Assembly: GCA_938075675.1 (NCBI GenBank)
Contig: CALJHE010000033.1
Span: 1-33,778 of the forward strand
DNA length: 33,778 nt
Direction of reading: 5' to 3'
Source of the DNA: Candidatus Poseidoniaceae archaeon
GTDB lineage: Archaea > Thermoplasmatota > Poseidoniia > Poseidoniales > Poseidoniaceae
Part shown: one piece after another, positions 2,298-7,525 of the stretch
How the letters are laid out: each line of letters opens with the position of its first letter
Numbering within the stretch: position 1 is the stretch's first letter
Translations under genes and position numbers: made by a program
Notes under the pieces: generated by a model
Seen by the model: the letters and a program-made list of their open reading frames with translations, nothing else
Told to the model about the DNA's origin: nothing
Database searches by the model: none

Positions 2298-2396
2298 GCG
2301 AGGCATTGATAGCGAAGAAGTTCGACGACCGCTTATCAGAGCCCCTTCCCGACCGTGCCCAGCACAACAGTGGAAATCGGACTAGGAGTGAGCCTC

Positions 2397-3407
2397 ATGG
2401 CTGGAATGGACCTCGCGTTAAAAGCAAAACTGCAGAAGCAACGTTACCATATCGTTGGTGAACACGGCGGCGTCAAAACATGCCACTGGACCAAAGAATC
2501 TCTTCTCCGTGACCGCCAGTGCTACAAGGGGAAATTCTACGGTGTTAAAAGTCACAATTGCATGCAAATGTCACCGGTTGTCGACCAGTGCAATCTTGCC
2601 TGCACATACTGCTGGCGTGAACCGCATATGGACACATTGGAACTCACCGACCAAGATCCCCTCGACCTGCTGTACGAGTCCGTTCGCGCCCAGCGCAGAC
2701 TGTTGTCTGGGTTCGGAGGAAATCCAAAAGTGCCTCGGGAAAAGTGGCTGGATGCTCAAAATCCTAAGCATGTTGCCATCTCACTGAACGGTGAACCAAC
2801 CCTTTACACCCGCCTTTCTGAATACATGGATTTGTGCCACAAGCACGGCATGACAACCATGCTTGTAACCAACGGCACACTTCCAAAGGTTATCGAAAAA
2901 TTGGATACCTTGCCGACACAGCTCTATGTTTCCGTTGATGCTCCAAACAAGAAGGTCTTCGATGAAGTCTGTAAGCCAAAATGGAACGACAATGCGTGGG
3001 ACAAGTTCTCGGAAACACTGGATTTGTTGCCGTCTCTTGATACTCGAATTGTATGCAGGCACACGCTGATGAAAGGAATCAATATGTCCGATGAACACAT
3101 CAAGCAATTTGCTGCCCTTGACATGCGAGCAGACCCCGATTATATCGAAAACAAAGGTTATGTTTTCGTTGGACACAGCCGAGAAAATCTCGGTGTAGAG
3201 AACATGCCAAGCCATGAAGACATCATGGATTTCTCTGCCAAAATTGCACCTTTGACAGGTCGTAAGATTTTATCTGATTCACGTCCAAGTCGTGTGGCGC
3301 TGGTCGGGCAAGAAATCTCACCAATTCCAATTCCTGAACCGACCATGTTCTTCCCTGATGATTTAGGAATCGCACCGTCTGTCAAGCACCTACAGATGGC
3401 GAACTGA
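2397..3407 (+). CDS. taw1: tRNA 4-demethylwyosine synthase (archaeal TYW1)
   Basis: Radical SAM enzyme that condenses N1-methylguanosine-37 of tRNA-Phe with pyruvate to form the tricyclic 4-demethylwyosine. The SAM-cluster motif CxxxCxxC is C65, C69, C72 (CNLACTYCW). The second-cluster cysteines C29, C42 and C55 keep the 13-residue spacing known for archaeal TYW1 (C26/C39/C52 in the Methanocaldococcus enzyme). The N-terminal LQKQRYHIVG and KTCHW are family hallmarks. I chose ATG 2397 (336 aa) over an in-frame GTG at 2355: the family starts just before the KQRY segment, and an AGGAG lies about 9 nt upstream of 2397. The flavodoxin domain of eukaryotic TYW1 is absent, as expected in archaea. 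It converges on the next gene with a 73 bp gap. Confidence 0.95.
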   Translation: MAGMDLALKAKLQKQRYHIVGEHGGVKTCHWTKESLLRDRQCYKGKFYGVKSHNCMQMSPVVDQCNLACTYCWREPHMDTLELTDQDPLDLLYESVRAQRRLLSGFGGNPKVPREKWLDAQNPKHVAISLNGEPTLYTRLSEYMDLCHKHGMTTMLVTNGTLPKVIEKLDTLPTQLYVSVDAPNKKVFDEVCKPKWNDNAWDKFSETLDLLPSLDTRIVCRHTLMKGINMSDEHIKQFAALDMRADPDYIENKGYVFVGHSRENLGVENMPSHEDIMDFSAKIAPLTGRKILSDSRPSRVALVGQEISPIPIPEPTMFFPDDLGIAPSVKHLQMAN

Positions 3408-5865: not shown

Positions 5866-6087
5866 GTATCTCCGTTAGCGCCTCCCTTTTTCAATCGTCG
5901 CGTAAAATTGCGTGTAAAAAGGAACATGGCTTTCAGATGTCGGCGTATTAGAAAAAGACTGGATGGCATAGAGGGCCATGGCAATGAAGAGCGATGTGGA
6001 ATGCTTCAATGTCGATGTGCAGATTGATGTATTGCAGCGCATATTCTCCTGATGAGAGTATATATTCAGTAGAATACTTGATTCTAC
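5866..6087. promoter_or_regulatory. Divergent intergenic region between gmd and the ThiF operon
   Basis: This 222 bp stretch must hold promoters for both directions. On the plus side there is a clear TATA box at 6058-6067. On the minus side no single TATA element stands out; a CGGAGA lies close upstream of the gmd ATG and may act as a weak ribosome binding site. Short open frames here have no recognisable protein character. Confidence 0.45.
6058..6067 (+). promoter_or_regulatory. TATA box of the ThiF-JAMM operon
   Basis: The sequence gtatatattc is centred about 26 bp upstream of the ATG at 6088. That places the expected transcription start on or next to the start codon, implying a leaderless mRNA for the first gene. 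Confidence 0.55.
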
Positions 6088-6741
6088 ATGGAAGAAGACT
6101 TGCCGCAAAAATCGCTGCTGATAATTGGTGCCGGAGGCATCGGAACAACCGTTGTAGACCTGCTTGTTCCCGCACTTGAACGAATACAACTCGGCGCCAA
6201 AATCACTTTGATGGATGGCGATACCGTTGAAGCCTCAAACCTCGGCCATCAAAACTACAGTGCAGCCGATATCGGAGCATTCAAAGTGGATGCTCTGGCG
6301 AACAAATGGTCCAAAGCTAATGGCTTACAAGTTCGCTCTGTTGCAGAAAACCTGAGAGATTTGGAACAACTTGATGGATATGATTTGGTTGTGGTCTGTG
6401 TCGACAGACCTGAACCACGACGCCTCGTTCACGCCCTTGATGTGCCGTGGATTGACTTGCGTTGCTCTGGTGATGGCTGGATGGTATTCACTTCTGACTC
6501 CGATCCAAACTTAGTGGCTCAAATGACACCCGACCATGAACCGATGAGTTGCCAAGTTGAGGGAGCGCTCGACGCAGGAAACCTCGAATTTGGATTTTCC
6601 ATCGCCGGGACATTCGGCGCTCAGTGGATTCTGCAACAATTGAGAGAAAGACGTGCGCCGTTGCAATCGATTGGAAGCCTCACATACGGGAGTTTCGAAT
6701 TCCCGAAGGTCAGCAGTCCGGTAATGGAGGTGAAGCCGTGA
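6088..6741 (+). CDS. ThiF/E1-like adenylyltransferase family protein
   Basis: E1-superfamily Rossmann protein, the fold that adenylates the C-terminus of ubiquitin-like and sulfur-carrier proteins (ThiF, MoeB, UbaA, E1). The nucleotide loop GAGGIG is at residues 14-19. The acidic strand end and signature DGDTVEASNL are at 43-52, ADIGAFKVDAL follows with K66, and VCVD ends at D105. The position normally held by the Arg of the NLxRQ motif is His54 (NLGHQ). Cys154 (MSCQVEG) is a candidate thiol; no CxxC zinc pairs are present. At 217 aa it is a minimal E1-like core. It overlaps the JAMM gene by 4 bp, so it probably works with it. The target carrier protein is not in the window. Confidence 0.88.
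   Translation: MEEDLPQKSLLIIGAGGIGTTVVDLLVPALERIQLGAKITLMDGDTVEASNLGHQNYSAADIGAFKVDALANKWSKANGLQVRSVAENLRDLEQLDGYDLVVVCVDRPEPRRLVHALDVPWIDLRCSGDGWMVFTSDSDPNLVAQMTPDHEPMSCQVEGALDAGNLEFGFSIAGTFGAQWILQQLRERRAPLQSIGSLTYGSFEFPKVSSPVMEVKP
6726..6733 (+). promoter_or_regulatory. Ribosome binding site deciding the JAMM start
   Basis: GGAGGTGA is a near-perfect Shine-Dalgarno sequence. The six bases from the end of GGAGGT to the GTG at 6738 match the spacing seen at other internal genes here. It supports the GTG start over a longer in-frame reading from 6624. Confidence 0.7.
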
Positions 6742-7289
6742 TTTTCATTCCTGGACTTGAGCAACTCAATGTCGATGAAGATATGTGGTCTCATGTGACT
6801 GAAATGGCTCAACAACGGCAGGTGGATGACGAAGTCTTGCTCGATGTGCAACAGCGTGCAGCACAGAACGGTCGATGGGATGTCGTCTATGCCATATCCG
6901 TTCTCGCAGGCCTTGAGACATCGGTGCTTATCGATGCAGAGAATGTCATTTCGATCGATTGGGGCACCTCCGGTTTCGTCCAACTTTCACCACCGGTTGG
7001 ATGCGTTGCACCGTTCAAACTCTGGGTGCATACACACCCTGGATTCAGTGCGTATTGGTCCGGAACAGATACACGAAGCCTTTCCATCGGAGTGGGCATC
7101 GTTGCGAAAGCAATGGTTCTCGGTTCACCAGGAGTCAAGTGCGCTCACAACGCCACAATGCTTCCGTTGACTGAAGATACTGCAAGAATTGCAACCAACG
7201 GCCCACTGAGTGATTGGTCAGATGAAGAAATTATACCCTGGGGAGATTGGTATGAAAGCAACCTCAACACCGAAGAGGTGAGAGCATGA
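6738..7289 (+). CDS. JAMM/MPN+ metallopeptidase-like protein
   Basis: The 183-residue protein carries the zinc-binding JAMM signature HxHPx6SxxD: H98, H100, P101, S108, D111 (HTHPGFSAYWSGTD). A catalytic Glu is expected upstream; E60 or E68 are the candidates. JAMM proteins are isopeptidases or deconjugases that remove ubiquitin-like modifiers (HvJAMM1 in archaea, RPN11 in eukaryotes), or they process carrier proteins. The GTG start overlaps the ThiF stop (GTGA), and the ATG of the next gene overlaps this stop (ATGA), so the three genes are translationally coupled. Pairing with an E1-like gene suggests a conjugation/deconjugation or carrier-maturation role. No ubiquitin-like or E2-like gene is adjacent. 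Confidence 0.85.
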   Translation: MIFIPGLEQLNVDEDMWSHVTEMAQQRQVDDEVLLDVQQRAAQNGRWDVVYAISVLAGLETSVLIDAENVISIDWGTSGFVQLSPPVGCVAPFKLWVHTHPGFSAYWSGTDTRSLSIGVGIVAKAMVLGSPGVKCAHNATMLPLTEDTARIATNGPLSDWSDEEIIPWGDWYESNLNTEEVRA

Positions 7290-7525
7290 GTGGAATCCGA
7301 AAACCAAAGGACGACGCAGAGAAAATCAAAGCGCGTATTGCGATTGCCCAAGGAAAAGGGACTTCACTGGAAGACTTCATCGAAAACATCACTGGTGTTA
7401 AACCAGAAGATGAATTCGTTCAAGCAGTCAAGAATCGAATCGAACTTGCTCACGAGCAGGAAGAAACACTGGACATCATAGCGCTCATCAAACAAATGGA
7501 AGAACTCCAGAACCAATGGGCTTAA
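7286..7525 (+). CDS. Small charged helical protein coupled to ThiF/JAMM
   Basis: A 79-residue protein of unrecognised family, rich in Glu, Lys, Gln and Ile. It reads as mostly helical with a possible coiled-coil C-terminus (about 50-78). It does not look like a ubiquitin-fold protein: no beta-rich pattern, and the C-terminus is NQWA rather than Gly-Gly. The ATG overlaps the JAMM stop by 4 bp, with GAGGTGAG just upstream. The coupling argues that it is real and stoichiometric with the JAMM protein, perhaps as a partner, adaptor or substrate; that role is inference. Its TAA directly abuts the stop of the convergent HADH-ECH gene. Confidence 0.8.
   Translation: MSGIRKPKDDAEKIKARIAIAQGKGTSLEDFIENITGVKPEDEFVQAVKNRIELAHEQEETLDIIALIKQMEELQNQWA

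Follow-up and report, generated by a model that had tools for sequence, protein, structure and literature searches.

Which modifier, if any, is served by a ThiF/E1-like enzyme and a JAMM metalloprotease whose genes stand together with no visible modifier or E2? This question is raised by three coupled plus-strand genes at positions 6088–7525 of a 33,778-nucleotide stretch of DNA from a marine archaeon, Candidatus Poseidoniaceae archaeon (order Poseidoniales). The stretch, hereafter called the window, is all of contig C33 (CALJHE010000033.1) of a 1.89 Mb assembly (GCA_938075675.1) that is 90% complete. The third gene of this trio encodes a 79-residue helical protein. A first-pass annotation of the window suggested that the trio may be a coupled conjugation, carrier-maturation or peptide-modifying set. 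Its genes do remain neighbors in related marine archaea, and they are distinct from the usual sulfur-carrier proteins, but the modifier-less part of that reading did not hold: another part of the genome probably codes for the apparently missing tag, as a chain of two ubiquitin-like (Ubl) units that resembles the polyubiquitin of human cells. The observation holds up, and it is of more interest than three orphan genes would be, in that it leads to an unlinked tandem Ubl gene family, the function of which we infer from sequence comparisons. We consider it probable, with clear reservations, that the three genes encode the enzyme arm of an archaeal Ubl modification system, in which the unlinked modifier would be cut by the JAMM protease and activated by the E1-like enzyme, with the small four-helix protein as a putative adaptor.

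In sister loci, a gene upstream of the ThiF gene encodes a protein of 73–102 residues that ends with ...LPGLVGG, or a similar sequence, and a short tail. It adjoins the ThiF gene or, in locus L056, lies one gene further off. A profile built from these sister-locus sequences (A4) was searched against 59 related genomes. In the window genome, it matches twice (E-values of 2e-16 and 2e-14) on another contig, C22, where two tandem Ubl units are encoded on the minus strand (G000:C22:37200-37622). The protein has 141 residues from an inferred start (the longest open reading frame has 172 residues); its first unit ends with ...PALQAG before KDE, and its second unit ends with ...PALQAG before a final Q. 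The proteins of the relatives consist of one to four units, which end with ...PGLVGG in most of the relatives examined. Of 194 genomes of the phylum searched at E-values up to 1e-6, 21 contain the Ubl, all of them members of the window's order. In L132, a longer protein carries two identical head-to-tail units close to its start, followed by another domain, and in L137 one unit forms a fusion with an AAA+ ATPase. A locus of genome G062 (L208, 4527-5801) encodes three tandem units, and its next gene opens with a degenerate Ubl and continues into another domain.

The fold of the Ubl was modeled for a relative, the protein of L131, using eight sequences. The model has the order b-b-a-b-b-a-b, with predicted local distance difference test (pLDDT) scores of 86–92 in the core and 75.6 overall. 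The 50 Foldseek matches listed for it are mostly ubiquitin or SUMO. In a profile search of the PDB with the Ubl, 58 of the best 60 of 106 matches are named ubiquitin, and these are near-copies of one another. End-to-end alignment of the Ubl profile with hhalign gave scores of 14.3 with ubiquitin, 15.8 with ThiS and 14.6 with MoaD, compared with 6.3 or less for 12 shuffled controls. No Pfam family exceeded its cut-off among the Ubls that were scanned. With NCBIfam thiS, the four-unit Ubl of L207 gives a match under the cut-off (30.1 vs 37.45 bits, summed over the units), and the two-unit Ubl of the window genome gives none. Based on the model of the relative, not of the window genome's own protein, we conclude that the Ubl is a predicted beta-grasp modifier with a C-terminal Gly (an AG end in the clade of the window), for which ubiquitin and ThiS/MoaD score alike as ancestry.

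The occurrence of the Ubl ties it to the trio. Among 145 genomes of the order (obtained of 150 requested), JAMM was found in 70 and the Ubl in 68; both are present in 63, JAMM only in 7, the Ubl only in 5 and neither in 70 (Fisher p 9e-27, a value that, like those below, treats genomes as independent and ignores their kinship and incompleteness). One of the genomes with the Ubl only, G005, has ThiF at a contig end. In the set of 59 genomes, ThiF of this family was found in 24 (best E-value at most 1.2e-38) and the Ubl in 23 (E-value at most 1.3e-8), with both in 21, ThiF only in 3, the Ubl only in 2 and neither in 33 (Fisher p 8e-11). Within the genus of the window, among the genomes listed, which include only part of those with no match, the corresponding split between JAMM and Ubl is 17/2/3/5 (p 0.011). 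According to coordinates read from lists, 17 of the 63 genomes that have both encode the Ubl no more than a few kb from JAMM. In the one-contig genome G059, the Ubl (C1:111217-111636) and JAMM (C1:506894-507409) are about 395 kb apart, and thus their separation is not only an effect of assembly.

Gene fusions point to the same connection. Two Ubl units and ThiF form one protein in L194 (4539-5780), L195 (4181-5422) and L196 (3789-5063), with units that end with GG, and JAMM and the small gene follow; the protein of L195 differs little from that of L194. Four further loci, L198, L199, L203 and L204, have one Ubl unit followed by a ThiF-JAMM fusion and then by a small gene of 77–81 codons. The profile match of the latter is weak in L198, L199 and L203 (E-values of 7e-4 to 7e-6) and absent in L204, and none of the four candidates has the R-x-P-x-D start described below.

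The C termini of the units are also conserved. Among 69 Ubl proteins from 66 loci, of which 45 are tandem, all 58 internal units end with AG or GG. AG or GG followed by a tail or another domain likewise ends 68 of the 69 last units (by unread bases in one of them, a fragment in G113), and the exception, in G123, ends with FG and has no tail. As read from the sequences, this layout is that of a polyubiquitin precursor, and a conserved internal [A/G]G would be unexpected if the last C terminus were the only one of importance.

The type of the C terminus matches that of the protease. The comparison covered 36 genomes with JAMM, three of them without the Ubl; a decaying second trio of G003 (JAMM about 58% identical) was not counted, even though the Ubl of that genome is of the AG type. 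Where JAMM shares at least 70% identity with that of the window, the end is AG (10 of 10 genomes, the window included), and where it shares at most 59%, the end is GG (23 of 23 genomes). The type tracks the JAMM clade and not ThiF, as G027 and G019 (ThiF 85% and 78% identical, respectively) are both GG. In a Mantel test on the 29 of these 36 genomes with full-length sequences, made with no control gene, the distance matrices of Ubl and JAMM correlate with r of 0.87 (0.68 allowing for ThiF), and those of Ubl and ThiF with r of 0.75 (0.19 allowing for JAMM). Because there is no control gene and the pattern perhaps reflects a single switch from GG to AG, these matches are suggestive only.

The three genes of the trio form a stable unit. 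Related loci were collected with a scan based on the JAMM alignment, which kept 80 of 81 loci; it relies on a single peptide pattern, F[KQ][LVI]W[VT]HTH, and is thus not a demonstration of absence elsewhere. The records are titled Poseidoniales, Poseidonia, Poseidoniaceae, Marine Group II (MG-II), or only Euryarchaeota, euryarchaeote or Thermoplasmata archaeon. Neighborhood in relatives had been proposed as a check in the first-pass annotation, and the complete trio, in the same order and on the same strand, was found in 72 of the 80 loci; the arrangement is therefore beyond chance. Three of the eight incomplete loci are cut by contig ends (L089, L119 and L139), and the other five (L128–L131 and L133) have Ubl-ThiF-JAMM with no recognized small gene. 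A gene for a glycosyltransferase of 438–452 residues lies upstream in L036, L037, L041, L043 and L044 and in part in L038 (tested with Pfam for that of L036 only); it was rejected as a core part, being absent in the window, L040 and L042. Two operons are mosaic: L034 (G027) and L035 (G019) combine a ThiF 78–85% identical to that of the window with a JAMM of 58%, as if they had recombined internally. The second trio copy of G003 (L039, G003:C6) appears to be decaying, with the usual N terminus of the small gene lost and a short upstream glycosyltransferase-like gene.

The first-pass annotation had read an E1/ThiF core in the first gene and a complete JAMM motif (H98, H100, S108 and D111) in the second, and both readings are borne out. 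The JAMM residues are E60, H98-T-H100-P, S108 and D111; E60, H98, H100, S108 and D111 are invariant in the 80–81 aligned rows that are ungapped at these positions (the window included; the rows for all trio proteins come from close relatives only). The protein matches Pfam Prok-JAB only under the cut-off (16.5 vs 25 bits), and its best PDB profile match, weak at an E-value of 0.03, is the Rpn11-like protein 6fjv, which we take to be that of Caldiarchaeum; the assignment is made because of the motif and this weak match. JAMM has no NCBIfam or PADLOC match. The nearest relatives of JAMM, from Candidatus Poseidoniaceae and a Candidatus Poseidoniales archaeon, are 98% and 97% identical, and we accordingly place the window in Marine Group II (Poseidoniales).

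ThiF passes the Pfam cut-off for ThiF (65.3 vs 28.1 bits, E-value of 6e-18), and its PDB matches include Uba4, MccB and MoeB. Its characteristic residues are G14xGGxG, D43xD45, N51, H54, Q55, K66, D106 and C155, of which all except H54, which is discussed below, are invariant in the 78–79 aligned rows with a residue there (79 of 79 for C155, the window included). The window genome also encodes a MoeB/UbaA-like E1 with a PSCAEGG stretch; by eye, C155 aligns to SC of this stretch, the Cys of which is presumably catalytic. The best NCBIfam match is TIGR03736 PRTRC_ThiF (62.5 bits vs a cut-off of 144.75); other scores are those for adenyl_thiF (50.7 vs 275.25), moeB (35.1 vs 376.55) and NF047750, the UbaA equivalog (35 vs 450). 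Scores so far under the cut-offs ruled out the PRTRC, ThiF, MoeB and UbaA equivalogs as the identity of ThiF, and with them the thiamine or molybdopterin pathway that the annotation had named as a placement that would refute its view.

The small protein has R5-x-P7-x-D9 near its N terminus, and these three residues, the most conserved of the protein, are kept in all of the 71–72 rows with a residue there. It has no cysteine, and its C terminus varies among relatives (e.g. WA, WQ, MA, MT, SM, WI and SV). The earlier description of a protein of no known family that lacks a Gly-Gly end agrees with our searches: Pfam, NCBIfam and PADLOC gave nothing at E-values as high as 1, PHROG gave one match (0.087), and no PDB sequence matched under 0.5. 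An AlphaFold2 model (47 sequences) consists of four helices, with a pLDDT of 86.9 for the best of five models (range 67.5–86.9), and its comparison with PDB folds gave no match (best E-value of 4.0). As a modifier, the protein was rejected for its four helices and the absence of a Gly end; as an E2, it was rejected because the window's protein has no cysteine. A Ubl gene is present in the same genome, co-occurs with JAMM, and adjoins or is fused to the E1 in relatives, and therefore the small protein is unlikely to be the modifier of the system. By elimination, it may be an adaptor.

Taken together, the following course is proposed. The modifier would be made as two head-to-tail units, and JAMM would cut this precursor after each [A/G]G, taking off the linker and the last residue. 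A Caldiarchaeum JAMM cleaves its own ubiquitin precursor exactly after Gly-Gly (PMC6043591). The ThiF-like enzyme would then adenylate the exposed C-terminal Gly of the Ubl, which it may hold on C155. Subsequently, the Ubl would be joined to amines of target proteins with no classical E2, as in the SAMP and Urm1 systems, where transfer is E2-less. We propose E2-less transfer because the window genome has no E2 over the cut-off of Pfam UQ_con, the E2 family that was searched (best score 13.7 bits vs 27), which also agrees with the absence of an E2 noted by the first-pass annotation. JAMM may also take the Ubl off its targets and so reverse the conjugation. The four-helix protein would most likely be a recruiting or regulatory adaptor for the E1, JAMM or the Ubl.

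Several points weigh against an enzyme arm with an unlinked modifier. Support for the fold is moderate: the best Foldseek E-value is 1.6e-3 (none is under 0.001), with template modeling (TM) scores of 0.3–0.4. The single-domain ubiquitin matches in the profile search have E-values of only 0.15–1, and the value of 5.7e-19 for polyubiquitin sums repeats. The hhalign probabilities are only 2–3% for ubiquitin, ThiS and MoaD, and the score for Urm1 (4.1) is no better than those of the shuffles. Neither Pfam nor NCBIfam gave a ubiquitin, ThiS or SAMP match for the tandem Ubl of the window genome. The modifier and the enzymes are unlinked in the window genome and in 46 of the 63 genomes with both, and ThiF is present with no Ubl found in G001 and G023 and with only a contig-end scrap in G016, in assemblies that are incomplete. 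The AG/GG pattern could be one ancestral switch, and no E2 or E3 was found. In addition, the Arg of the NxxRQ motif at the adenylation site of Uba4 is replaced by His54 in 78 of 78 aligned rows (the window included), and the motif is different again in the more distant L205; because of this replacement, full E1 activity of ThiF is not certain.

The main rival is a sulfur carrier, that is, a Ubl that is adenylated by ThiF and becomes a thiocarboxylate for biosynthesis or tRNA thiolation, with JAMM only maturing the carrier. The fold, the type of E1 and the conserved Cys are common to ThiS/MoaD-type carriers, and the match of the L207 Ubl to thiS under the cut-off points the same way. Simple bacterial operons of Ubl, E1 and JAB have also been interpreted as sulfur transfer systems in a survey by Iyer, Burroughs and Aravind (2006; PMC1779556). 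However, no trio protein has a Pfam rhodanese match, and the genome already has another E1, the MoeB/UbaA-like one (with a rhodanese-like tail by eye), together with a Pfam ThiS-family protein. An [A/G]G at every internal unit end would, in our judgement, be odd for a carrier, and no sulfur-metabolism gene was recognized by eye in the part of the trio's neighborhood that was scanned. We therefore regard this explanation as unlikely, though it deserves more weight than the two that follow.

An antiviral defence module of the Bil/Bub or cyclic-oligonucleotide-based antiphage signaling system (CBASS) kind, which would use the same chemistry, appears improbable. Presence inside one genus is patchy, and some related loci share their contig with a gene for a T7-like RNA polymerase or for an AAA+ ATPase, which suggests viral or mobile carriage. 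On the other hand, the listed PADLOC matches of ThiF do not extend beyond the E1 portion of E1-E2 models, JAMM and the small protein have none, and no cyclase or effector was recognized by eye beside the trio, which stands at the same site in several genomes, between a 354-residue gmd-like and an approximately 700-residue FadB-like gene (names assigned by eye). The least probable of the three is direct action of ThiF on the 79-residue protein or a peptide, like that of MccB or Cap2, with no separate modifier. Such a role would suit the tight coupling of the small gene to the E1 and JAMM in the 72 loci and the presence of MccB among the PDB matches, and Cap2 is a precedent for the activation of a non-Ubl protein (PMC12355090). 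This reading was made unlikely by the finding of the Ubl, the gene of which co-occurs with JAMM and is fused to the E1 in three loci. In addition, the C terminus of the small protein is variable and its conservation is near the N terminus.

With regard to mobile carriage, the contigs of L130 (2-3758), L131 (2937-4370) and L137 (3502-5175) encode Ubl-ThiF-JAMM as well as a T7-like RNA polymerase (PHROG, E-value of 2e-79) or an AAA+-type ATPase, and they may represent viruses or mobile elements of Marine Group II. In a virus collection, the JAMM alignment found one weak viral locus and a mobile-type ThiF found none; a Ubl search gave one short match, in which profiles found nothing. On one IMG/VR viral contig (L141, 7767-9316), a protein with a JAMM motif immediately precedes a ThiF-like one, in a pair that is distant from the present family.

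Returning to the proposed Ubl modification system, the nearest described systems are the bacterial type 6e polyUbl operons, which combine an E1-like and a JAB/JAMM protein with one to three Ubl repeats of about 70–75 residues (PMC1779556). In those operons, JAB is mostly fused to the N terminus of the E1, an inactive E2/RWD domain is present, and a metal(zinc)-binding protein is often near. The Poseidoniales genes share the E1, JAMM and tandem Ubl. In contrast to type 6e, JAMM is separate here, or follows ThiF where the two are fused; no E2/RWD match was found in the three genes with Pfam (further genes were only partly scanned), and a coupled four-helix protein is present instead. The modifier is also mostly unlinked, has up to four units, scores under the Pfam cut-offs and belongs to an archaeal order.

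The ubiquitin/E1/E2/RING/Rpn11 system of Caldiarchaeum subterraneum similarly has an archaeal Ubl precursor with residues past Gly-Gly and JAMM maturation (PMC6043591), and the best, though weak, PDB profile match of the window JAMM is the Rpn11-like protein 6fjv. It differs in that its ubiquitin (CsUb) is single and not tandem, and that the genome of the window has a short ThiF-type E1 and no canonical E2 that we found; there is no significant sequence link to CsUb, the structure of which is match 37 of the Foldseek matches. The SAMP/UbaA/HvJAMM1 system is E2-less, with the MoeB-like E1 UbaA, a JAMM protease and SAMPs that are single units. The E2-less modification proposed here, with an E1 and JAMM, is alike, but the Ubl is tandem, the MoeB/UbaA-like E1 and the ThiS-family protein are separate from the trio, and ThiF scores far under the UbaA cut-off. 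In the PRTRC cassette, ThiF has a JAMM partner, and PRTRC_ThiF is the best NCBIfam match of our ThiF, yet it lies far under the cut-off, and JAMM and the small protein have no NCBIfam match. Type II CBASS and Bil differ in that ThiF here has only 217 residues and corresponds to the E1 part only, with no E2 seen among the neighbors scanned.

The features of the locus are compiled below. The genes are joined by 4-bp overlaps, GTGA (6738-6741) between ThiF and JAMM and ATGA (7286-7289) between JAMM and the small gene; these overlaps, the internal ribosome binding sites and the TATA-like box are all read in the sequence as the first-pass annotation described them. The box would fit a leaderless archaeal promoter.

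Table. Features of the trio locus, numbered by position in the window
Feature	Position	Strand	Basis or remark
TATA-like box TATATATTC	6059..6067	+	~25 nt 5' of first ATG; from sequence
ThiF/E1-like adenylating enzyme, 217 aa	6088..6741	+	Pfam ThiF, PDB matches, aligned rows
Shine-Dalgarno-like GGAGGTG, 5' of JAMM gene	6726..6732	+	Sequence
JAMM metalloprotease, 183 aa, GTG start	6738..7289	+	Motif; weak Rpn11-like PDB profile match
Shine-Dalgarno-like GAGGTGA, 5' of small gene	7275..7281	+	Sequence
79-aa four-helix protein	7286..7525	+	Open reading frame, aligned rows, AlphaFold2 model

Two kinds of further neighbors were observed. A TYW1-like radical SAM gene (assigned by eye) is located at 2355-3407 of the window, about 2.7 kb before the trio. 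In L194 and L195 a similar gene, also assigned by eye, stands right next to the small gene, and in L196 the gap between the two is about 60 bp. In the other family of the order, a gene for a TFIIB-type zinc-ribbon protein lies near the Ubl-E1-JAMM genes (L202, 6469-7446; L205, 6407-7456; L200, 5792-6925). These are three of six such neighbors, and the search of these three with Pfam matched Zn_Ribbon_TF over the cut-off in two (E-values of 7e-7 and 4e-7) and under it in one (1e-4). This zinc-ribbon protein is a possible target or regulator of the Ubl system.

Ubl tagging in archaea has so far been represented by SAMP/Urm1-like modifiers and the Caldiarchaeum operon. Our search of the open-access literature revealed no account of a system of this kind from Marine Group II; a prior description is possible in subscription papers or preprints, which are outside that search. 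One MG-II single-cell genome has genes for a UCH peptidase and RING proteins, which are not the present system (PMC4327156). A tandem polyubiquitin-like precursor with its own E1 and JAMM and no E2 found, in a planktonic euryarchaeal order, would be a new point of comparison, bearing on the origin of polyubiquitin genes and of E2-dependent transfer, and its four small genes could be reconstituted in the test tube. We advance only tentatively, and consider doubtful, the stronger idea that Poseidoniales have true polyubiquitin-type signaling, in which tandem units would be released by JAMM, activated by a minimal E1 and attached to proteins, with the four-helix protein standing in for E2 and E3. 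If this were true, such signaling would be either a separate archaeal invention of polyubiquitin or an early relative to it, and a polyubiquitin-type system would be present in about half of the examined genomes of an abundant ocean order, and also on viruses or mobile elements.

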